Source of the DNA: Liolophura sinensis
Taxonomy: Eukaryota > Mollusca > Polyplacophora > Chitonida > Chitonidae
Assembly (NCBI RefSeq): GCF_032854445.1
Contig: NC_088295.1
Location: 77,652,028 to 77,716,027, forward strand
Length of the DNA stretch: 64,000 nt
Reading direction: 5' to 3'
Under the pieces are notes generated by a model, which was not told the DNA's origin, did no database searches, and saw only the letters and a list, made by a program, of their open reading frames with translations. The translations under genes were made by a program, and so were the position numbers. This document shows positions 700-63,938 of the stretch, piece after piece; position 1 is the stretch's first letter; every line of letters starts with the position of its first letter.

Positions 700-980
700 T
701 ACCATCAAATCAGGTGTCTGTCTTGTCTATGTTTATTAGGTGTCTGTCTCATCTGTGTGCTTTGAATGTCTGTCTCACCTGTGCGTATTGGGTGTGTGTC
801 TCACGTGAGTGTATTGAGTGTGTTTCAAACCTAATGTCTTTCTGTCCTGTGTGTATGGGATGTCTGTCTCACCTGTGTGAATTCGGTGTCTGTCTCACCT
901 GTGTGTATATTGGGTGTCTGTCTCACCTGTGTGTATATTGGGTGTCTGTCTCACCTGACTGTATTGGGTGTCTTTCTCAC
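700..980. repeat. 26-bp minisatellite next to gene 1 exon 2
   Basis: About 10 units of GTGTCTGTCTCACCTGTGTG plus ATTGG-type ends, abutting the donor of gene 1 exon 2. Read on the minus strand each unit is close to the exon end plus its donor (ATACAG/GTGAG). The last four variant units before the exon match, in the same order, those beside gene 2 exon 2. Confidence 0.9.
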
Positions 981-1763
981 CTGTATGTATTGGGTGTCTC
1001 CCGGTCATTATTGTACTTCGTGTAGGTGTACATATCGGCTGTACGTAATAGTTGTTGAGAATAATTACGCTCCTGGCCAGCTCGTCAATGTTAGGTGTGG
1101 AGATCTCCGAGCCGTGAAATCTCACGTCATCCCAGCCCTGTTTGTGACAAAATAACACAACATTAAGCAGTTTATCGAAAAGGGTAATATCCCAGTAACG
1201 TACAAAGTGTTCATGCGCATTGTAACGCAGTGGATACGTTCATTAATTTCTCAAGAGAGAAACGCTATAAATTTGTTTGAATAAGATTCAACGTCGCTTT
1301 CAGCCTTACCTCGACGATGTCTCTTCCTAGCACGTCGGTTCTAATACCGTTTTTTCCTGACAAAGCCAGAGAAAACTGGAGAAATCCATTTATAGATGAG
1401 AAACTTTTTTCACCGAAGGGTGACAGTTCTTGGTGATAGATTTTGGAAAAAAATCACTCCAAACAGGTAAATTACTGAGTCAAAAACTTGTAAACTGAGC
1501 GTCAAAGTCTAAGTCGATAATCGCAAGAACAACTTTAATCATCAAGCCCCACAGAAATATGGAAGAAACAATATGACTTGAGAGAGTTAAAAAAGGACAC
1601 GCACGGCACTAAATTAAAGCACCTGTGCGCTTACGAGATCATCGGAGACGATGAAATCAATGTGAGGTCTCTGTGCAGACCGAGCTGTGATATGTTTTAT
1701 CACACACCCAACACCGAGTAGGAGCACAAATACGTGCCCTTGTACAACGCTTCTGGGTAGCAT
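981..1763 (-). CDS. Gene 1: arylsulfatase B-like, 5' part only (exons 1-2)
   Basis: First two coding exons of a sulfatase whose remaining exons lie off the left edge. Exon 1 (1635-1763, 43 codons) begins at ATG 1763, has a hydrophobic stretch (VFVLLLGVGCV) that could be a signal peptide, and ends RPHIDFIVSDDL before a GTAAGC donor. The two Asp match the metal-binding pair of sulfatases. Exon 2 (981-1137, 157 bp) starts GWDDV and carries the sulfatase signature CTPTR, whose Cys is converted to formylglycine in active enzymes, then RHPIHTG and a GTGAG donor. Exon 2 is nearly identical to exon 2 of gene 2, but exon 1 is very different. Exon 1 was found by frame and splice logic and is the less certain part. 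Whether the complete gene is functional cannot be seen here. Confidence 0.68.
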
Positions 1764-4305: not shown

Positions 4306-7300
4306 TTAGAAGGTCTGTTTGTCCATCCAGCAACTCCAGGCCCCGTCGTAGTACTTGGGATTGGCATTAGGATCGGTTGGTTTGTTTCGCGGTGGAACCG
4401 ACGTTTTCCTATAGTCTTCGATTTTCTGAAGAAGCATCTCAACAAGGTTTGGATTTTGATCCGCGATGTTGTGGTATTCACAGGGATCAACGGGAATGTT
4501 GAATAAACAAGGAGCTTTCTTTGGCATGCAATTTGTTGAAAGGTTTGAAGGCTTTGGACCGCACTTTACGACGATAGGAATGTCTTCTGAGCTGAATGTG
4601 ACAGGGTTGCTGTCCATTGCTTGAGGTTCAACAATGTCGCCACCAGAGGGCGTGTCGTCCCCAGGAGGCGTGCATCCATACCAGCCATCGTTACGCCCGT
4701 TGGATATGTCCCCCGTGACCAGTTTAAAGTCGCCAACGCGAATCGAGGAGAAGTTCTGGATGGGGTCGATGTTGTGAAGAATCTCCTTCCTGACGTCAGC
4801 CCCACGGGAGTTGAGAACGTCCCACATGTCATAGCCGTCTATTGTCGTCATTTCACTGGGGTCTCCGCCCGCCACCCTGTAGATCGTGGGCAGCCAGTCC
4901 GCCACGTGCATCATGTGACTGGAGACATAGCCTGTGTTCTGCAGAAGAGGGCTGTACACAAATCCAGTTCCTCGGACCCCTCCCTCCCACATGGTGTTCT
5001 TTAAACCTCTGACAATGGAAAACACACACAGCATGTTTGATAAAAGCTCCACGTTGGATATAGGAGCAGTTGCACTCAAAGCGCAGCTGAGATACACACA
5101 TTTTGATTAACGACAATTTATAAACTACTCAATGATTTGGGTACTGATTCAATTTACTCGCCTCGAACATTTCTTGCGTTTTTCCGCGATCATTGAAAAC
5201 TATTGACTCCTTATCTTTGCATGAATCCCTCCTGATATCTTACTATATTTGTATGGTTTCTTAGTTCTTTGGTGTTTTGAAAATTGGTCTTGCGATTCTA
5301 GATATTGATTTGGATGACGGCTGGTACATAAATGACTATTCCAACGCCTAGATGCACGTGGAGTTTATGTCCAAAATCATCATTCCAAACACCTTCTAAC
5401 ATCTTACCTACTGTACACTCTCGTCACTTTCAATACTACTACGACCGTGGTTGCTAGTGTACTACAAGAGGATCTGTTAAAGCGGACCGTGGTTGCTAAT
5501 GTACTACACGAGGATCTGTTAAAGCGGACCGTGGTTGCTAGTGTACTACAAGAGGATCTGTTTAAGCGGACCGTGGTTGCTAGTGTATTACAAGAGGATC
5601 TGTTAAAGCGGACCGTGGCTGCCAATGTACTACAAGAGGATCTGTTAAAGCGGACCGTGGCTGCTAGTGTACTACAAGAGGATCTATTTAAGCGGACCGT
5701 GGTTGCTCGTGTTCTAGGCTAGAGATTTTTCTGAAGACCATGATATGATAGTCACACGAGGTATGGCTTGGAAAAGATACAGGTGTGGTGACTTAATATG
5801 GTAGCATAGTTAAATATGACAGTTTTAACTGAGAGAATAGTCACACGAGGCATGGTTACCTGCATCTTCTTGGAACAGATACAGGTGTGGTGACAACGTG
5901 ACAGCATAGTTACTTATAACAGTTTTAACTGAGAGGATAGTCACACGGGGCATGGTTACCCGAGACAATATGCAGATACAGACTTGTGGGCCTAACCTTG
6001 GAGGCGGTTGCGTAAGGCAGCTTTACCGAGACAAACGATACAGGCACGTTGACTCAGATATCGATGGTTGCATGTTGCAGTTTTACCCAGTGTGACTACA
6101 CGAGGCATGGTTACCTGTGACAAAAGATACAGGCTTGCTTGCCCAACGTGAGAGGATGGTTGTATATGACAGTTTTATCCAACACGTCAAAGGAGGCATG
6201 GTTACCCGTGACAAAAGATACAGGCACGGTGATTTAACTTGAGACAGCTGTAGTATGCGCGTGTCAGTGTTACCTGAGGGGATAGTTACAGGCAGCATTC
6301 CCGTCGTACCCATTGGCTGGTCCTCCATTGTCCGTGGTAAAAATTATAACAGAGTTTTCCATCATTCCAGTTTCTCGTAGCGCCCGAGTGACGTTACCCA
6401 CGGAGTCGTCGAGAGCTGACACCATGCCTGATAATATTTAGAACATTTCGTATTAAATTTTACATTTAGTTAGAGAGAGCCAAGTACAACATACCGGGAT
6501 AATATTACACTGAAAGGTACACCGCAAGTTTTGATACAAAACATTCTTTTTTTTATAATAAGATCATGCCTAGAAATCTGGGGGATAAATTATCTATAAT
6601 ATCAAAAGTTTATTTATTTATTTGCTTGGTGTTTTACGCCAATAATAGTAAAGCAATATTTCCTCAGTAGTAGACCGAACTACTACTATTTCCAAATAAA
6701 TTACTGATTAGTACTACGCTCAGTTTTTTATATTTCAGTATTACCCGCAAAGACTCGTCTCTTTTCATTTTGGATATTCGGAAACCTGTTGACATATTTG
6801 GCCGGAGCTTCCACTGCCTTGTCTTTGCCACCATTTCCGGCATGGACCGCTTGGTGAGCCAAGTACAGAAACAGAGGCTGGGAAGAGAACAGCGCAAAAT
6901 TAAAACACAGTACCGTACGTGGGAAGGTCTGGTAGTAACAGACGGATGGTCGTGGTTTTCTCCCTGGCTGTGTCTGGTTTCCTCCAATCATAATGTTGGT
7001 AGCCGTCACATAAGTAAAATATTCTTGAGTACGGCGTAAAACACCAATGAAATAAATAAATAAATAAATAAATAAATAAAAGAACACAATAAGCTGTGTA
7101 TCTTTGCTGAAGAGGGTTTCTGTATATTACAGGAGTAAATAATTTATATCAAGGAGTAAATAATGTGGTTGTAGCACTGTAGTGAAGGTAGGGAGAATGA
7201 GTCGGTATTCACTTAATTGCTTAATTGAGATTTAACGCTGTGCATAAATACATTTCACTCAGATGACGGCGGTCAGAGTCTTATCGGTGGAGGAATTCAG

Positions 7301-10300
7301 TCAGATTCGGTCAGGTTTGTCAATATTAAATTACCGGCACGTAAATAACCCGCCCGCTGATGATTGTGTCATGATAAAGGAAGACTTAAGTTCAGTAGGA
7401 AACTGGGATAGATGAAGGTACCATACTACCGATAAAAGTAGTTAGATTTGCTTTTATACACATCGTGTTCTTCGTGGCATTGGGAGATAAGTGCTTGTAA
7501 ATGAGAACAATTTCGTATTCATGGAATATTTCGACTGTGTGATAAAAAAAGGGTGAATTGTGACGCAGATAAATACTGATGACTACCTCTGAGGTATGAT
7601 GAGAGAGGATAAAGACTGGTGATTACCTCAGAGGTATTGTGAGAGCGGATGATGTTCTCAGCAGCAGACGAGAAGAGTTCCGTACTGTAGCTTCCGTTCT
7701 CATTCCGCACCACGTTCATATCCTGACGGAAGTCCAAACCTGAGTACATCTAAAATCAGGAAAATAACACATTATACTTGTCACGTGTAAGTGTATCGTA
7801 GTTCTGCATAGTCGTTCATTAGTTGAATTCTGTCTTCCGAAATCATAACAATTTTCAGCATGGTGCGCTTACAATTCGACAATTACACACAATACGACAA
7901 GACTTTCTTCACACGACATTGTAGGGTTAATCAGCGATATCAACATCGACAATACTTTTAACAGTAGGCCTATGGTATATAAAGGCCTTTGTTCGTGTGA
8001 TAGGCCTAGTTTTTGTTTCTAATTGTAATTTAATTTTTTCTTTAATCCTCTGTACAACACCATATTGCCACAACACTAACTAGGCTCCACAAACTACTGT
8101 TCCTTTCTTTCTTGTGTCTTTGCTCTGTACGTTTTATTATCCCTCCCTGTTTTCAGTTCATTACAATGGAGACACTGTCAGGCAAATTAAAATATCGATC
8201 GTTATCAGTTATTTTGTTTCATTCCCCTTTGACACACCTCCTTAACTGCTTCACTCGATCGTTCACACATATCTTTGAGAAAAGTTCATCAGAATTTTCC
8301 CCCATACCCGTTTCAAACGTCAGAACGACCTCACCGAGTCATAAATGAAAAGATTTCATTACCTAAGGACAGACAAATAACATCGTGATGCACATACCAC
8401 TTCTGCCACGTGATCGAAGTAGTCCTCCTTTCCCAGCCAGTATCCGAAGTGGCTTTTGAAGCCTCGATATGTGGGAGTGTATTCTTTTTGGAAGAATCCA
8501 AGATGCCACTGCCGAGAGAAAACAAAACTGTCACCGAATAAAGTAGTTATTCATGGTTAAAGAAATCCGCTTTAACAACCCTAATGTGTTTTTCCTCCAC
8601 ACGCCCCTCACCCCGCCCCCATTTTTCCAATCCATGAATAGGCGTAGGCGATCTAATCCAGAATAGAACAAAGTACTTTTCTCCGATTATCTAGTCCTTA
8701 CACAAACTTTATCAAAATAGCAAAATATATTTTCCCGTTTCCCCACTTTGTCCACTTTTGATCCTAGTCCAAAATAAAATCACTTCCTTTTCCCCATTTC
8801 TCAGGTATGTGCACCTTCGATACTAATCGATAATAGCATAACTTACTTTTCCACAGTTTGTGCACCTTTAAAGTTCGAATCCATAATTAAAGATCTTACT
8901 TCTTCACACATTCCGGGGCCTCCGTGGCTCAGCTGGTTAGCGCACTAGGACAGCATAATGACCCAGGAGTCTCTCACCAATGCGGTCGCTGTGAGTTCAA
9001 GTCCAACTCATGTTGGCTTCCTGTCTGGCCGTAAGTGGGAAGGTCTGTCAGCAACCTGCGGATGGTTGTGGGTTTCCCCTGGGCTCTGCCCGGGTTCCTC
9101 CCAAAATAAGGCTGGCCGCCGTCGTATAAGTGAAATATTCTTGAGCACGGCGTAAAACACCAATCAAATAAATAAATAATAAATACTTCACACATTTTAT
9201 CCTAGTCCAGCTTATTAACTTACTTTCCCCTAGTTCCTCGTTCCGTGCACCTTCGCTCTAAACCCAGAGTAGTCTATTGTACAACTTACTTTTCCTACAA
9301 TATGAGATGAATATCCTAACTTGTTCAAATACTGTGGCATGATTGTCTCGTCCAATGACAATCCATACGGTTCAGGTGCCAGTATTACCGAATGCTGTAA
9401 ACCTGTAGATAGAGAATTAAAAGAGGAAATAACAAAATAAATCACAAACAGATGACACACATATTCTTGAGTCAAAAGTCAAAAAGCGCACTACACTGTC
9501 TGTTTATGTGTATTTGGTGTCTGTCTCTTCTGTAGGTTCTGGGTGTCTCACCTTTTGTATTTGGTGTCTGTCTCACCTGTATGTATTAGGTGTCTTTCTG
9601 ACCTGTGTATTGGGTGTTTGTCTCACCCCAGTGCTATTTGGTGTCTTTCTCATCTGGGCGTATTAGGTGTTTCTCTGCCTGTGTGTATTGGGTGTCTGTC
9701 TCACATGTGTGTATTTGGTGTCTGTCTCTTCTGTATGTATTGGGTGTATCACCTTTGTGTATTGAGTGTCTGTCTCTTCTGTATTTATTGGGTGTCTCAC
9801 TTTTGTGTATTGGGTGTCTGTCTCAACTGTATGTATTAGGTATCTTTTTCCCCTGTGTACTGGGTGTTTGTCTCACCCCTGTGTGTATTTGGTGTCTGTC
9901 TTATCTTGGTGTATTAGGTGTTTGTCTGCCTGTGTATTGGGTGTCTGTCTCACATGTGTGCATTGATTGTCTTTCTCACCTGTGCATTGGGTGTCTGTCT
10001 CACCCCTGAGTGTATTAGGTGTCTGTCTCATCTATGTGCATTGGGTCTCCGTCTCACCCCTTTGGGCATTAGGTGTCTTTCTCACCTGTGTGTATTGGGT
10101 ATGTGTCTCACCTGTGTGTATTAGGTGTTTGTCTCACCTATTTGAATTAGGTGCCTGGTTGACCTGTGTGTACTGAGTGTCAGTCTTACCTATGTGTACT
10201 GGGTGTCTGTCTCATCTGTGTGTATTGGGTGTCTGTCTCACCTGTGTGTATTGTGTGTCTGTCTTACTTGTGTGTATTGAGTGTTTATTTCTTCTGTGTG

Positions 10301-11383
10301 TAATAGGTGTCTGTCTCACTTATGTGTATTGGGTGTTCATCTCTTCTGTGTGAATTGGCTGTTTATCTCACCCGTGTGTACTGGGTGTCTGTCTCGCCTG
10401 TGTGTATTGGGTGTCTGACTCACTCCTGTGTGTATTATGTGTTTGTCTAACCTGTGTGTATTGGGTATGTGTCTCACCTTTGTGTATTAAGTGTCTGTCT
10501 CACCTGTGTGAATTAGGTGCCTGTCTCATCTGGGTGAATTAGGTGTCTCCCTGTGTATAATGGGTGTGTGTCTCACCTGTGTGTATTGGGTGTCTGTCTC
10601 ATCTGTGTGTACTGGGTGTCTGTCTCACCTGTGTGAATTCGGTGTCTGTCTCACCTGTGTGTATATTGGGTGTCTGTCTCACCTGTGTGTATATTGGGTG
10701 TCTGTTTCACCTGACTGTATTGGGTGTCTTTCTCACCTGTATGTATTGGGTGTCTCCCGGTCATTATGGTGCTTCGTGTAGGTGTACATATCGGCTGTAC
10801 GTAATAGTTGTTGAGAATAATTCCGCTCCTGGCCAGCTCGTCAATGTTAGGTGTGGAGATTTCCGAGCCGTGAAAACTAACGTCATCCCAGCCCTGCAGA
10901 ACAAATTACCAGGGTATCGATGGTTTTCCTTGCGACTGCGAACATGGTCAGCGTCATGTAACGGCTTATGCATAAAGATTAAAAACTCAGTTCATACTTC
11001 CAACATCAACGAAATAACTATATTTATCATTTATTTCAGGACGATAGTATTTATTTATTTATTTGATTGGTGTTTTACGCCGTACTCAAGAATATTTCAC
11101 TTATACGACAGCGCCCAGCATTATGGTGGGAGGAAACCGGGCACAGCCCGGGGGAAAATCACGACCATCCGCAGGTTGCTGGCAGACAGGACGATAATAA
11201 AACTGAACTCTAATGTACATTTCTTGTTTATTAGTTAGAAAGATTACATAAATCAAGTTACATTAAACTTACCAGATCATCGGCCACAATGAGAATTATG
11301 TTCGGCCGACTGCAAAATCCCACAGTTGTGAATGAGCACAGCAGCAATAGCCAAATTACCCTTGTAACCATTTCGATCGTCAT
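4306..11383 (-). CDS. Gene 2: arylsulfatase B-like sulfatase, complete, 8 exons
   Basis: Exons, 5' to 3': 11273-11383, 10737-10893, 9290-9402, 8398-8508, 7627-7749, 6745-6877, 6274-6427, 4306-5008. They total 1,605 bp and stay in frame: 534 residues, close to the 533 of human ARSB. Likely hydrolyses sulfate esters of glycosaminoglycans or similar substrates in lysosome or outside the cell (family knowledge; substrate not visible). Seen: hydrophobic leader ([15 protein letters not shown]), ADDL metal site, CTPTR at 73-77 (formylglycine Cys 73), K127 and H129 in VGK-WHLGF, TTDNGG at 280-285, and K304 in [13 protein letters not shown]; all expected active-site elements are present. An in-frame TAA precedes ATG 11383; a second in-frame ATG lies at 11371, so either could be the start. 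Introns 2, 5 and 7 contain tandem copies of the neighbouring splice-donor region. Confidence 0.93.
5446..5715. repeat. 42-bp minisatellite, gene 2 intron 7
   Basis: About six nearly identical units containing GCTAGTGTACTACAAGAGGA and TGTTAAAGCGGACCGTGG. No coding meaning is evident; the open frames across it come from the unit length being divisible by three. Confidence 0.93.
5740..6273. repeat. Degenerate ~95-115-bp tandem repeat running up to gene 2 exon 7
   Basis: About five diverged units, each with GATACAGGTGTGGTGAC, a GACAGTTTTAACTGAGAG block and CACACGAGGCATGGTTACC. The array ends at the donor of exon 7. The block CTGAGAGGATAGTCACACG resembles the end of exon 7 (CTGAGGGGATAGTTACAGG on the plus strand). 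Confidence 0.8.
6905..7080 (+). mobile_element. SINE 3' fragment
   Basis: GTGGGAAGGTCTGGTAGTAA through GAGTACGGCGTAAAACACC and a (AATA)n tail. Sits just upstream (transcript sense) of gene 2 exon 6, about 30 bases from its acceptor. Confidence 0.8.
7565..7650. repeat. Two-copy duplication of gene 2 exon 5 end and donor
   Basis: Exon 5 ends ACCTCTGAG/GTAATCACC; about 45 bases into the intron the sequence ACCTCAGAG/GTAGTCATC repeats it with flanking CTCTCAT and AGTATTTATC. The second copy still has a usable-looking donor. Confidence 0.8.
8917..9178 (+). mobile_element. Full-length tRNA-derived SINE
   Basis: Head GCCTCCGTGGCTCAGCTGG contains a perfect RNA polymerase III A box (TGGCTCAGCTGG); GAGTTCAAGTCC about 60 bases later is a near B box. 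The body carries the dispersed core (GTATAAGTGAAATATTCTTG, CGGCGTAAAACACCAATC) and ends in AATAAATAAATAATAAATA. Lies in intron 3 of gene 2. Most complete copy in the window. Confidence 0.88.
9490..10736. repeat. 26-bp minisatellite filling intron 2 of gene 2
   Basis: Roughly 45-48 degenerate units with core GGTGTCTGTCTCACCTGTGT. It starts exactly at the 5' splice site of exon 2 and fills most of the intron. On the transcript strand each unit contains CACACAG followed by GTGAGAC, a copy of the exon end and consensus donor. Confidence 0.95.
11040..11195 (-). mobile_element. SINE 3' fragment, gene 2 intron 1
   Basis: TTATTTATTTGATTGGTGTT, CGCCGTACTCAAGAATATTTC, GGTGGGAGGAAACCGGGCAC and CCGCAGGTTGCTGGCAGAC: body and tail in reverse orientation, without the tRNA-like head. 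Confidence 0.8.
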
Positions 11384-13685: not shown

Positions 13686-16600
13686 ATGGGGTCACGTGAC
13701 GTACCGGTAGTCATCTTCTTCATCTTGCTACACGTAGTCTGTGGGAGCAGACCAAATATCGTCATTATTGTCGCCGATGATTTGGTAAGTAGAACCTCCA
13801 CAGATGCAAAACCCGATTGCTGTTTTTTGTGTCGCCCTTTTGAATGTGTGTTCATTATTTCCTCAGGGTTACGGAATGGTAATCTGTAGTGATGTTATTT
13901 TAAATCAATAAAAAGTTATGCTTTTCATTTATGAAGTAATAATCATACCACTGCTCCCTACATTTATATGGTGATTGGTCAAGTATTTATTTCATAAACC
14001 ATTTCTCCTCGCGTAAAATATGGTGATTGGTCAAGTATTTATTTCATAAACCGTTTCCCCTCGCGTAAAATACATGGGAAATTTTTCCGACAAATTTATT
14101 TATTTATTTTATTACATAATGTTTTTACGCCGTACTCAAGAATATTTCACTTACATTTTCACTTTGCCGAGAGGAAACCAAGCACAGCCCAGAGAAACCA
14201 CATTACCATCCGCAGGTTGCAAACCGAGGAGTTTTTTTCACGTATTAAAACGCCTCCTAGCGGAAGCAAGAGCGGAAAGCAAACATAGATCCTCATCGTC
14301 ACTTATTTGATTGGCGTAAGAATGAATAACGCAACTATGCAACCCTATCATGGCGATTATGCCATTGGTGTTTTATGCCTTTAATACTAAGTTATACCAT
14401 CTATATGAATTCGGCCAGGAGGAAAGAGGAAACCGTGCAGTACCCAGAGGAAAACACTGAGCCTGGTTATGCTTACCTGCATAGGTGTTCGATAGCCTTC
14501 ACATGTCTTTTTAATGCTCTTGTAAAGCCTAATGTAAAATCTAAAGTAAAACCGTATCCCGCAGAGGTCACGTCGGCCTTAGGGTACGTGTATTAAGCCT
14601 GCTGACGTGTTTTTTTTTATTACAGGGGTGGGATGACGTCGGATTCCATGGCTCTGAAATAAAAACGCCAAACCTGGACTACCTGGCTCAGAATGGAATC
14701 GTTCTCACTGATTACTACGTGAACCCAGTGTGCACTCCGACACGGAGTGCCATATTGACAGGCCGCTATCCTATACATACAGGTAATAGTAGTCACTTGC
14801 CAAAGGTCGGTGGCTTTTCCCGTGCACTCCAGTTTCATTCACCCATAATACTGACCGCCATTGTATATGCGTGGAAATTTCTTGAGCAGCAAAAACAATC
14901 AAATAAATTTTAAAAAATACAGAAATACATATTGTTTTCAACTTGCCGAAGTCAGTATTAAATGGCATCGGATACAACATAACTATGTATAGATATATAG
15001 TAAAAGCTGACGTCAGGTACTGTCAGATCTTACATGGTAATGATTCATACGTTTGAAATTAAAGTAAACTCTTTTCTTGACGACGAGATTTACCTTTACG
15101 ACAATACTAACGGCTAAAAGTACGTTTAACCGCTTATTTACGTCAAGGCATATAAAGTGTATTTATGTAAACCCGCCTTAAAATGTCGTCCCCCAAATGT
15201 ATACATTCTATATTCCAGGTTTGCAAACTGAGGTAATATTTGGTCCCGAACCGTACGGACTAGGATTAAACGAAACCCTGTTACCACAGTATCTGAAAAA
15301 GCTCGGATATACCACCCACGCTGTTGGGAAGGTTTGTGGGTTTCCTACTGATCAATACATAGACGACATCATTGTTTTCAGTGTGTTATGCCAATCAAAT
15401 TGCTAACACGAACTCTTGTCTTTTGGGTATCACAAAAAGACGCACGGTTTTTACATATAACTCTAACATGCAAGCTATTTTACGTTTTCTACAAAATCGC
15501 AACCATCGCAGGGTAGTTTTTGTTTACTGTGTTACTTTTGTGTATAGTCGAAGAAAATTCGACCACCAAGATTCGAGTTGCTTAAAACATAACAGCTTTG
15601 AGACTTATATGACGCTTGCGTTATTGTTTTTTTCTTGCTATGTTAATTTGGCGCCAGTTTGTGAATGGGGTTTCTACTAAGTTGATAAAATGAGCACTGT
15701 TCACATTCTTTACATTCTTAATTGCACAAGTACTACTGTTATAAAGTCACCCTCATGGTATCAGTCTGTACTAGCACGCAATTTTGATGGCTCATTGATG
15801 TCAAAATGTAGATAATTTAGTTGGGCAGCATGGAGATGTTGTCGAATTTATATGTTAATTCACCAAACCGATATACATTGGATAGGGATAAAACCAAATT
15901 AGCTGGAAACCTTTATCATATTGTGTTTCAGTGGCATCTGGGATTTTTCAAGAAGGAATACACGCCTACATTTCGAGGTTTTGATTCTCACTACGGATAT
16001 TGGACTAGCCACGAAGACTATTTTGATCACCACTCTTTAGAGGTAAAACTTTAGACCTCAGCCAACTGTACAGTTATATACACTATACACGATTCCACGC
16101 CTCCTAAAATAGGTTTACTATTATTTGAATGATGTTTTACGCCGTACTAAAGAATATATTCACGTTTATACGATGGTGGAATTATGGTGGAAGGAAACTG
16201 GGCAAAACCCCGGGGAAAACCAGCGACCACCCCACAAGTTGCTTTTCCTGTGTATGGAATTAGCAGGTCCTTCCTTTTCCTTTTTAAAGTCTATGTTCTC
16301 TACAGGTGTATTTTGGGCTGGATTTCCGCCGTAACCTCGATGTGGTGTCCAATGAGACCGGGTTGTACAGTACGGAACTATTCACCGCTGAAGCCGTGTC
16401 CAAGATTGAAAACCACAACAAAAGCCAGGTTGGTGATTCTGCACGTTGAGATTTGTTAAATACATTTGCTTTGTGAAATAGTCATTTATGTTTTATTTCC
16501 TTTCGAAGTTTCTTTAGGCAGTAAAAAGCAGTGTACAACACTGGTGTTGTCATACCGGTACCAAAGTCATTTACCCAGCACTCGGTTCCTGCAATCGCCA

Positions 16601-19773: not shown

Positions 19774-19804
19774 GTATGTGAATACGTGCCGTCTTGAAAA
19801 GTTT

Positions 19805-20532
19805 CAGGTTTTTGGATGATGAGTCACAAGCAAGAAAGCAATAACCATGGCATTTGCTTATGAATTAAATACATTCCAGATAAATTCCTTAGTTTTAGGA
19901 AGTAGGCAAAATTGTACATCAAGTCAGAGCAAAAACGCCTGTGTATTAACATTGTTTACCCGCTTTAGACTGTATCTGTCTCTAGGAATGTGTCATTAAA
20001 TGTATATTTTGGAACAAAGATTGGCTTTTTAATTATTTCATCATTTTATCACTTGTTGGTCACTGACAGGAATTAATAAAGGGACCATAATAAATTGAAA
20101 GCAATATCATACCTTCAACAAGGCAACAACACAAGGACATCAGCACAATGTATAGTCACCCGGTGTATCAGGTTTTTGGATGATGAGTCACAAGCAAGAA
20201 AGCAATAACCATGGCATTTGCTTATGAATTAAATACATTCCAGATAAATTCCTTAGTTTTAGGAAGTAGGCAAAATTGTACATCAAGTCAGAGCAAAAAC
20301 GCCTGTGTATTAACATTGTTTACCCGCTTTAGACTGTATCTGTCTCTAGGAATGTGTCATTAAATGTATATTTTGGAACAAAGATTGGCTTTTTAATTAT
20401 TTCATCATTTTATCACTTGTTGGTCACTGACAGGAATTAATAAAGGGACCATAATAAATTGAAAGCAATATCATACCTTCAACAAGGCAACAACACAAGG
20501 ACATCAGCACAATGTATAGTCACCCGGTGTAT
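19805..20532 (+). repeat. 364-bp direct tandem duplication after gene 3
   Basis: 19805-20168 is repeated at 20169-20532, and I see no difference between the copies. It covers the likely 3' UTR end of gene 3, including both AATAAA signals. The first copy starts 32 bases after the stop codon. Confidence 0.93.
20075..20094 (+). promoter_or_regulatory. Putative poly(A) signals of gene 3
   Basis: Two AATAAA hexamers (20075-20080 and 20089-20094) about 300 bases after the stop codon. Because of the tandem duplication a second pair occurs at 20439 and 20453. Confidence 0.55.
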
Positions 20533-20639
20533 CTCTTCGTATCAGTATATGCCTTTAAATGTAAAACACTACCCTATGGAGAGTAAAACGATTGCGGGGA
20601 CAACATCCACTAAGATGTACGGAATTCTGGACACAATTA

Positions 20640-23450: not shown

Positions 23451-25657
23451 ATACTGTGAACCCAGTGTGTACTCACACACGGAGTGCGATACTGACTAGT
23501 CGCTATCCTATACATACTGGAAGTACTGTGGTACTGTGTTTACTGTTACTGTCTCACAAAGGTTGATGTTTATCGACACCAGATACAACGTAGATAAAGT
23601 AATAGCTGACACCAGACGCTACCAGATGTTACACAGCTACCTATTGATTCCCCCCGAGTCTGACCACAAAGCTTCTAACCGTAGCCCTGGTAACATGACT
23701 CCTGTGCAACGAACATTAAACATTACATGCACGATTCACAGTGAAATGAAGGCAAACCTATAGCCTATCTAAGCGAGTTATACTAAAAAATTTTATCAAC
23801 TACTCTATATTTCAGGTTTGCAAACTGAGGTAATAAAAGGTCCTCAACCATATGGGGTAACACAAAACGAAACCCTGTTGCCTTAGTATCTGAAAAAAAA
23901 ACTCGGATATGCGACGCACGCTGTTGAGAAGGCTTGTACAGTTCCTCTAGATCAAATATATGGATGACATTGCCATGAGTGAATCAGGGTGTTCAACCTG
24001 TCATTCAGTAACAAGACTTGTTGTCTTTTGGGTATCAGAATAAAGTGAAAGAGCATTTGCCATGCAACTCTAAGATGTAAACTACTAAATATGCATGACG
24101 TTTTAGGGTCCTACAAATTACAACCAGCACGAAAGAGTTATAGATAGACGAATCTGTCAGGATATGATATTAGATATTGTGTATGGGATATGATCAAAGT
24201 TTCAGAATGTCTTCCATTTCATGATTTATTTTCAAAGTTATCGCAGTGTAAGGATAGATTTGGACTTGAGAGCTTAATAAATTGAGAGCTTGGGCAGCAC
24301 AAGCTGGGCAGCACAAGTTTGGCAGCACAGGTTGGGCAGCACAAGTTTGGCAGCACAGGTTGGGCAGCACAAGTTTGGGCAGCACAAGTTTGGCAGCACA
24401 GGTTGGGCAGCAAAAGTTGGGCAGCACAAGTTTGGCAGCACAAGTTTGGCAGCACAGGTTGGGCAGCACAAGTTGGGCAGCATAAGTTTGGCAGCACAAG
24501 TTTGGCAGCACAGGTTGGGCAGCACAAGTTTGGCAGCACAAGTTTGGCAGCACAAGTTGGGCAGCACAAGTTGGGCAGCATAAGTTTGGCAGCACAAGTT
24601 TGGCAGCACAGGTTGGGCAGCACAAGTTTGGCAGCACAAGTTTGGCAGCACAAGTTGGGCAGCACAGGTTGGGCAGCATAAGTTTGGCAGCACAAGTTTG
24701 GCAGCACAGGTTGGGCAGCACAAGTTTGGCAGCACAAAAGATTTTGTGGAACTTGTATGTCAATCCACCAGACTCCACATGTATATTACGAGATAGACAT
24801 AGCTCGAAACATGCATCATGTTCGGTTTCAGTGACATCTGGGATTTTTCAGGAAGGTCTACACGCCTATATTTCGGGAATTTGATACTCACTATGGCTTC
24901 TGGACAGTCCGTGAAGGCTGTTTTGGTCACCACTCGTTACAAGTAAGACGTTAAAATCCTCTGTAGTTATCGTTACGACTGTATACAGTAGATTTCACTC
25001 CTTCATTGCTGACTTTACCATGGATTATACATGTACGTCACGGCTTTTCTTGCATGTCATTACCCTGATTATTAACGTGTACAGATGTCCAGGTATTTTG
25101 GGTTGGATTTCCGCCGTAACCTCGAAGTGATGTCCAATCAGACCGGGTTGTACAGTACAGCACTATTCATCTCTGAGGCCGTGTCCAAGACTGAAAACCA
25201 CAACAAACTCTGGTTGGTGATTCTCTATTGTAGGATGTCTTATGACCGTTGTTTAGTGAAACAGCCCTTTCTGGGTATTTTTTTCTTCTTCTTCCAACGG
25301 ATTTAGATAAATCAAAACTGTATACCTCATGTTGATATATAAAAAACAACTAAGTTATCCTGCTTGTGAACGAACAATTAAAACAACTAAATGTCCACAC
25401 TCTTCTTTACTGAAATGTATCAATAACAAATGTCAGTCACGAGGTCAAATAATCTCTGAATCGACCAGTCCAGAAAGTCGTCCTTTTCCAAGCTGTACAA
25501 TCTGAAATTCTGTTTTTCACGTCCAGCCTTTCTTCCTTTATCTGGCTCACCAAGCTGTTCATGCTGGTAACCCGAGCCTGGCCTCGCTAAAGCTCCTGAA
25601 CGTTATGTTTCAGCCGATTTCCGTACATCAAAAACCCAAAACGACGGATATTTACCA
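23451..25657 (+). pseudogene. Gene 4: decayed arylsulfatase copy related to gene 3
   Basis: Unprocessed (intron-bearing) duplicate of gene 3. Recognisable pieces: 3' part of exon 2 at 23452-23518, where the signature has become CTHTR (Pro lost); exon 3 at 23816-23931, with an in-frame TAG at 23884 where gene 3 has CAG, extra A's in a run, and a GC in place of the GT donor; exon 4 at 24832-24942, its first codon TGG changed to TGA; exon 5 at 25093-25212, missing two bases at its start; exon 6 at 25527-25657, with a one-base deletion. Introns also resemble gene 3 (for example the sequence before exon 4 and the GGTAGTCGTCAGCAGGGGG stretch after exon 6). No exon 1, 7 or 8 was found. Clearly non-functional as a sulfatase. 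Confidence 0.9.
24290..24735. repeat. 15-bp minisatellite inside pseudogene intron 3
   Basis: About 30 units of GGCAGCACAAGTTTG / GGCAGCACAGGTTGG. It is present in gene 4 and absent from the corresponding intron of gene 3, so it expanded after the duplication. Confidence 0.93.

Positions 25658-26890: not shown

Positions 26891-63938
<37,048 letters not shown>

Follow-up and report, generated by a model that had tools for sequence, protein, structure and literature searches.

Why should an intron carry nearly fifty tandem copies of the end of the exon that adjoins it, each with that exon's splice donor, and are the extra donors used? The question is raised by intron 2 of a gene, here gene 2, in a window of 64,000 nucleotides (the whole stretch of DNA analysed; NC_088295.1, positions 77,652,028 to 77,716,027) from the chiton Liolophura sinensis. 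The assembly of this species was published under the name L. japonica; PMC11068029 lists RNA-seq samples from digestive gland (SAMN35319765), foot (SAMN35319766), gill (SAMN35319767), gonad and heart, and there are HiFi reads of about 14x (SRX20411988). By sequence similarity, gene 2 is an ARSB-like sulfatase gene: its exons 2 and 3 match Pfam PF00884 (E 5.5e-15), their best PDB match is human ARSB (1FSU, E 6e-29), and the peptide CTPTR in exon 2 fits C-x-P-x-R, the active-site motif of sulfatases. The parts of the gene that matter here, in window coordinates, are the following.

10737..10893, minus strand: exon 2 of gene 2, 157 bp, ending in phase 1 and encoding GWDDVSFHG...(G)
10731..10739, minus strand: the true 5' splice site, CAG/GTGAGA, with the donor G at 10736
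9403..10736, minus strand: intron 2 of gene 2, 1334 bp, of which the array takes up 1241 bp (93%)
9496..10736, minus strand: an apparently donor-seeded 26-bp minisatellite, unit GTGAGACAGACACCCAATACACACAG; wraparound alignment from the donor gives 48 full units and a fragment
9290..9402, minus strand: exon 3 of gene 2, ...HIVGK with a split codon; the end at 9290 is taken from a tblastn match and the GTAAGT that follows

The array begins precisely at the exon 2 donor. The sequence-only reading had put some 45 copies of a unit of about 26 bp at this position, and was correct in all three respects. Tandem Repeats Finder reports a period of 26 and 47.0 copies (9544-10755, score 1152); spacings between units are 26 bp in 28 of 48 cases and 22-28 bp in the others. 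Each unit consists of about 18 nt of exon tail and 8 nt of intron, so that the repeats straddle the exon-intron boundary. Beside the donor, 17 of 18 positions of the exon 2 tail GACACCCAATACATACAG agree with the unit consensus; across the whole unit length the figure is 20 of 26. As read from the unit, the AG is preceded by A/C-rich sequence, not by a polypyrimidine tract.

The direction of copying can be judged from the protein. The exon 2 tail codes for TGRHPIHTG, and the aligned segment of human ARSB is TGRYQIRTG; because the tail aligns with the human enzyme, it is the exon that would have seeded the array. Related genes nearby allow a comparison.

713..980, minus strand: array of the gene 2 type at the equivalent donor of gene 1, 10 units
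981..1137, minus strand: exon 2 of gene 1, its protein 96% identical to that of gene 2 exon 2
14626..14782, plus strand: exon 2 of gene 3, with donor GTAATAG at 14783; its array-less intron is the control within the window
15221..15331, plus strand: homologue of exon 3 in gene 3, 67.6% identical across 37 aa

The exon 3 homologue shows that gene 3 shares the intron of gene 2, and this intron holds no array. Donor-anchored arrays are present in five sulfatase paralogues, namely genes 1 and 2 and those at 77.633 Mb, 77.643 Mb and 77.519 Mb. The gene 2 type is common to four tandem paralogues, the fifth being divergent; the 77.519 Mb paralogue has longer units with the exon tail as in gene 2. Across the sulfatase paralogues, arrays of 10, 19, 48 and 78 units occur in the one assembly.

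Donor-anchored arrays are not confined to sulfatases. Others, built from their own exon tails, lie in a P4Ha_N gene (Pfam E 7e-10 for the exon), in an [FeFe]-hydrogenase-like gene, which we take to be NARFL/CIAO3, and in a probable two-exon gene, with two open exons at C1:1.10 Mb. The hydrogenase-like exon (PF02906, E 3e-13) ends in VEVMACPSG, a motif present in solved hydrogenases. For the array a4 the exon call rests on two open stretches in succession, of 64 and 71 codons and bearing splice signals; these gave no match in Pfam, NCBIfam or PDB, and in the genome itself only themselves and one match at E 0.44.

The earlier proposal that the array originated from the splice site is therefore well supported: its start is the donor itself, the exon tail encodes conserved protein, the corresponding intron of gene 3 has no array, and other genes have the same layout with tails of their own. 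The sequence-only reading had named two observations that would speak against such an origin, the repeat occurring elsewhere with no exon copy and dominant units lacking GT. The first is seen in part, as donor-like repeats with no visible exon exist (e.g., C11, three copies), but their unit differs; the second is not seen, the commonest units of gene 2 carrying GT. Two other accounts were rejected. Invasion of the exon by the array does not accord with a conserved tail common to human ARSB and gene 3, and chance resemblance does not accord with so close a match at the exact boundary and in several genes alike.

Repeats of this kind are known from lancelets. The accessible parts of the amphioxus reports describe 'mirage' minisatellites in Adh3, in the globins BflGb6 and BflGb9 and in troponin C, with similar repeats in PGBD5, and note that their length is unstable. 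The globin mirage has units of 150-160 bp in 3 or 6 copies, whereas gene 2 has 48 of 26 bp. Like the mirages, the gene 2 array has many copies with splice signals, AGGT in 20 of 48 units and GT in 31 of 48, the true donor being counted in both. The lancelet cases were reported, in the same texts, gene by gene; here a single mollusc genome has such arrays in several genes that are not related, which suggests that mirages are no lancelet oddity.

The array also resembles the tandem duplication of AGGT by which, in the Rogers model, introns are gained (ATP2A1, fission yeast, potato RdRp; PMC4974935, in its accessible part), the duplicated AGGT there supplying both the GT and the AG. In that model the intron is absent before the duplication. 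Gene 3, however, shares the intron of gene 2 and has no array in it, which argues that an existing intron grew and that no new one arose. The dual-specific splice sites of UBC and VCX3A resemble the array in having tandem units each with AG/GT, but the UBC units, as given in the accessible part of PMC10809524, lie in coding sequence and have a length divisible by three, whereas the chiton units are 26 bp and intronic. The accessible text of a paper on Conus introns (PMC3862624) speaks of simple repeats and does not mention donor repeats. A literature search did not find a SINE sequence.

Taking these observations jointly, we consider it probable that the gene 2 array is a mirage-type minisatellite, grown from a short duplication of the junction, whose additional donors mostly stay silent. 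The array would have begun when a short segment spanning the exon 2/intron 2 junction was duplicated in tandem, a change that would have been tolerated because the copy nearest the exon retains both the exon and a working donor. Growth may then have proceeded by slippage or unequal exchange, in part ahead of the local gene duplications and in part following them. The spliceosome would mainly choose the exon-proximal donor, the others being putative by-products in decay. Units farther from the exon do match the consensus less well in gene 2 (rho -0.40, p 0.005) and in P4Ha_N (rho -0.56, p 3e-5); the gradient is not significant in the other three of five arrays tested (77.633 Mb, 77.643 Mb and a4). 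When each unit is compared with its nearest other unit, a weak gradient is seen in 77.643 Mb (p 0.012) and P4Ha_N (p 0.031), and none of significance in gene 2 (p 0.35), 77.633 Mb or a4.

Are donors special as seeds? Intronic minisatellites may arise widely and some of them cover donors, in which case a donor-like search pattern would simply select these. We give this account a little under an even chance. Triples of CAGGTRAG are 3-8 times commoner than those of seven control words, but the single word already outnumbers its reverse 2.5-fold (59,903 vs. 23,639), and correction per motif copy reduces the enrichment to about two-fold (3.84% vs. 1.81, 2.15 and 1.70% for three control words). Moreover, no exon is visible at four of the eight array edges examined in an unselected C1 stretch. 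On the other hand, the two-fold excess survives the correction, and within the same 5.47 Mb there are 15 arrays of the donor word, where three control words have 3, 1 and 5. It is a tentative suggestion, and one we rate as possible rather than probable, that throughout the genome of this chiton minisatellites are seeded preferentially by 5' splice sites and that introns grow outward from their donors. A duplication crossing a donor might be masked by splicing, or the donor might be a hot spot of duplication. If so, lancelets and molluscs would share a general way of lengthening introns, and a permanent reserve of dormant donors would exist. What donor-anchored repeat growth contributes to intron length, and perhaps to the making of new introns, becomes measurable.

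A second alternative is that the extra donors serve as alternative 5' splice sites. In gene 2 this would concern above all one of them.

10677..10685, minus strand: decoy donor +54, CAG/GTGAGA, the sole GT decoy of gene 2 that both keeps the frame and precedes the first stop

Its use would add 18 residues, the first in-frame stop of the read-through being at +83. Transcripts from the remaining decoys, frameshifted or stopped, would be removed by decay, and array length would then regulate sulfatase output. There is a precedent in human IFI6 (6-16/G1P3), where, in the accessible part of the report, a minisatellite supplies multiple splice donors and two downstream units are used, giving extra mRNA species; the chiton donors are predicted ones and mostly out of frame. 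The sequence-only reading had spoken of dozens of working-looking decoys. The dozens stand for the 30 of 47 extra units that keep GT (AGGT in 19 of 47), not for the rest. 'Working-looking' is too strong: 17 of the 48 units have no GT, and in silico 10 of 47 decoys equal the true donor in U1 pairing strength. Addition of multiples of a short peptide, also foreseen, mostly fails on the reading frame. Stop-free in-frame decoys occur in gene 1 (+54) and in the paralogues at 77.633 Mb (+51, +75) and 77.519 Mb (+39), and none in the 77.643 Mb, P4Ha_N and a4 arrays.

Conservation of the GT columns (true donor included in the figures for the other arrays) bears on the same question. In five of the seven arrays other than gene 2 they are slightly better conserved than the other columns (P4Ha_N, 0.95 vs. 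0.89; 77.633 Mb, 0.87 vs. 0.84; 77.519 Mb, 0.89 vs. 0.77; a4 and L039, 1.00 vs. 0.97), but less well in gene 2 (77 vs. 87%), so that selection on the decoys is unsupported. Lancelet mirages, too, are reported in the accessible texts to leave splicing undisturbed. Use of the extra donors is unlikely. Introns in which dozens of nearly identical donors follow one another every 26 bp offer a direct natural test of how the spliceosome chooses a single 5' splice site among many similar ones.

It is highly improbable that the array is a platform which, by binding U1 snRNP in bulk, suppresses premature polyadenylation or boosts transcription. Thirty GT-bearing decoys in one intron invite the idea, and bulk binding had been envisaged from the sequence, but the GT columns of gene 2 are the 4th and 8th least conserved of 26, and the median U1 duplex energy of the decoys is -6.7 kcal/mol vs. 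-11.1 for the true donor. Least credible of all is the insertion beside the exon of a pre-existing minisatellite, or its conversion of the exon end: donor-like arrays with similar ACACAGGTGAG cores do occur elsewhere, but the exon tail is the protein sequence common to ARSB and gene 3, and the other arrays read have different units.

The array in question lies in gene 2, which by homology is an ARSB-like sulfatase gene on the minus strand: its exons 2 and 3 together match Pfam Sulfatase (E 5.5e-15), and their best match among solved structures is human N-acetylgalactosamine-4-sulfatase (1FSU, E 6e-29). The parts of the gene concerned are:

10737-10893, minus strand: exon 2 of gene 2
9403-10736, minus strand: intron 2 of gene 2
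9290-9402, minus strand: exon 3 of gene 2

The sequence-only reading had placed a minisatellite at the donor of exon 2, and its coordinates and description are borne out both by TRF (9544-10755, period 26, 47.0 copies) and by an alignment anchored at the donor (48 full units and a fragment, reaching 9496). The array occupies 1241 of the 1334 bases of intron 2. Each unit joins an intron part, GTGAGACA, to a copy of the exon tail, GACACCCAATACACACAG, and the actual exon tail mismatches the unit consensus at one of 18 positions. Unit spacing is 26 bp in 28 of 48 cases and 22-28 bp in the remainder.

Sequence conservation indicates that the exon is the source of the array, because the 10-residue peptide of its tail aligns with LTGRYQIRTG of human ARSB, and because gene 3, a sulfatase paralogue in the window, shares tail and donor codon while being array-less. 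In gene 3 the peptide reads GRYPIHTG, the donor falls at the corresponding codon, and a homologue of exon 3 follows at 15221-15331; TRF finds no array between the two. The earlier proposal that the array originated from the splice site is thus supported. Array polarity away from the exon is suggestive only: unit identity to the consensus drops with distance in gene 2 (rho -0.40, p 0.005) and in an array at a P4Ha_N exon (rho -0.56, p 3e-5), and does not fall in three further arrays tested, and the consensus may lean toward near units. Identity to the nearest other unit shows no distance trend in gene 2 (p 0.35), weak trends at 77.643 Mb (p 0.012) and P4Ha_N (p 0.031), and none in the other two of the five arrays tested. 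Directly past the final exon of gene 3, at 19804-20533, a 364-bp unit is repeated twice with 100% identity, either a very recent duplication or an assembly artefact.

Genome-wide searches covered the 609-Mb, 632-contig assembly, the window (C1:77652028-77716027) included. The genome paper uses the name Liolophura japonica (PMC11068029), since corrected to L. sinensis (PMC12441733). A protein search with exon 2 matched 25 loci, and among the 18 where DNA was read, four clustered minus-strand sulfatase copies have the 26-bp array at their donor. A fifth copy, on the plus strand, has decayed units of 35-53 bp by eye.

Arrays at sulfatase donors on C1, the contig of the window, with in-frame, stop-free GT decoys (extra GT units downstream of the true donor) by offset from that donor
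gene 1, minus strand: 10 units; decoy at +54
gene 2, minus strand: 48 units; decoy at +54
77.633 Mb, minus strand: 19 units; decoys at +51, +75
77.643 Mb, minus strand: 78 units; zero such decoys
77.519 Mb, plus strand: nine units; decoy at +39

The 77.519 Mb units have the same exon tail as the 26-bp arrays and a longer intronic part; judged by eye, dropping 13 nt of that part from the 77.519 Mb unit would give the 26-bp unit. The two kinds may be one diverged array or two seedings. At the same locus (L037:5210-5326, C1:77.52 Mb), 4.2 copies of a 28-bp unit, TTGTGGACTGTATCTTTTCCTGATAATG, extend into the acceptor of the donor-seeded intron, which thus has repeats at both ends. The 77.64 Mb paralogue (C1:77643788-77643886) may be a pseudogene despite the longest array, since the match of its exon 2 is confined to residues 21-53 of the 53, the beginning seemingly being deleted. 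Arrays seem to have been inherited along with gene duplications, because gene 2 (5443-5716) and this paralogue (L035:812-985) also have a 42-bp array with a common unit. Within the window, an extra exon 3-like sulfatase fragment (23818-23931, plus strand, 44.7% identity, one internal stop) is probably a gene remnant.

The pattern recurs in other genes. Similarity to the gene 2 array pointed to a 26-bp array at C1:6.61 Mb, with 48.9 copies, which begins at the donor of an exon assigned to P4Ha_N (joined exons, Pfam E 7e-10); the exon tail AATACATACAG has eight unchanged copies in the array, and 12 read AATACACACAG. Likeness of the sulfatase and P4Ha_N tails is expected, the locus having been found by similarity. 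A scan independent of the sulfatase unit sought CAGGTRAG three times in succession, separated by 8-38 nt. It matched at 2,300 places across the genome, and the 100 of these listed comprise 15 arrays (a1-a15) within the initial 5.47 Mb of C1. The 5′ edge was examined in eight (a3-a6, a10, a12, a13 and a15), and four begin at a donor, two of them (a5 and a13, each following a short open stretch that has a good acceptor) only probably. Array a15 (5.47 Mb) adjoins an exon that encodes part of a [FeFe]-hydrogenase-like protein, presumably NARFL/CIAO3, whose tail VEVMACPSG compares with VEVMACPGG or VEVMTCPEG in solved hydrogenases; a4 (1.10 Mb) comes after a 71-codon open exon, itself preceded by one of 64 codons, neither with a family match. 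No exon was found at the 5′ edge of a3, a6 (ambiguous), a10, which may have older degenerate units further upstream, or a12, which lies some 67 nt into a probable intron. Elsewhere, an array on C3 (L039) starts after a possible 72-bp exon for which no homology was found, and one on C11 (L008) has three donor-like copies and no exon visible alongside.

Against the 2,300 triples of CAGGTRAG genome-wide, seven control words, made up of three scrambles plus the reversed forms of all four, yielded 429, 700, 627, 741, 301, 766 and 656; over the initial 5.47 Mb of C1 the three scrambles formed 3, 1 and 5 clusters vs. 15. As single words, CAGGTRAG occurs 59,903 times vs. 23,639 for its reverse, and CATGGRAG 34,414 times (reverse, 17,727). 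Triples per single are 3.84% for CAGGTRAG vs. 1.81, 2.15 and 1.70% for three control words, so that the corrected excess is two-fold; tolerance, instead of a hot spot, may account for it. The start of C1 (0.16-5.47 Mb) is rich in minisatellites.

How good are the units as donors? Of the 48 units in gene 2, the true donor counted, 31 have GT at the aligned site and 20 have AGGT. Donor strength was computed as the energy of pairing with the 5′ end of U1, using a conventional U1 sequence from which the chiton's own may differ; on this in silico scale 10 of 47 decoys match the true donor, and the decoy median is -6.7 vs. -11.1 kcal/mol. The GT columns of gene 2 are conserved at 77% vs. 87% for the others, ranking fourth and eighth least conserved of 26. 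Among seven other arrays, with the true donor included, they are less conserved than the rest in gene 1 and at 77.643 Mb and more conserved in the remaining five (77.633 Mb, P4Ha_N, a4, L039, L037). GT protection is therefore not consistent across arrays, and in gene 2 GT is worse kept than the rest. Reading through the true donor of gene 2 meets the first stop at +83; the only in-frame decoy ahead of it, at +54, would add 18 residues. The P4Ha_N and a4 arrays have zero in-frame, stop-free GT decoys, with stops at +6 and +1.

The observations comprise the position of the array, its unit, its conserved source and its recurrence in other genes. Such an array could arise by a duplication across the exon/intron junction, to which selection would be blind because a complete exon and a working donor remain; slippage or unequal exchange would then lengthen it. 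The layout is that of lancelet mirages (exon-boundary minisatellites), among which the chiton arrays are, by analogy, best classed. Repeats of this sort in lancelets reportedly leave splicing undisturbed (PMC3087553, PMC3902484), and in human IFI6 two downstream repeat units are reported to be used (PMC4526556). For donor choice, one study of human data points both ways: long introns favour the sites that lie nearest across the exon, while overall the downstream site is preferred in about 60% (PMC9225289). Among the matches listed from the openly licensed literature, none reports donor-anchored mirages in a mollusc or treats them as a class that spans a genome.

Other features of the window deserve mention. 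A 14-bp array at 24194-24847 (31.9 copies) can be read as long open frames on either strand (up to 217 aa) and is probably not a gene. A dispersed tRNA-like element, ending by eye in CGGCGTAAAACACCAATCAAAT, lies at 8930-9175 and 11050-11200, and at about 6050-6300 of L037; most of the 40 candidates scored, of 3345, are near-identical over about 210 bp. On the minus strand at 28-50 kb, open reading frames assigned by eye as EGF-like and thrombospondin-like exons (e.g., 34080-34418, 45368-45772 and 28984-29382) perhaps belong to one large multidomain gene.
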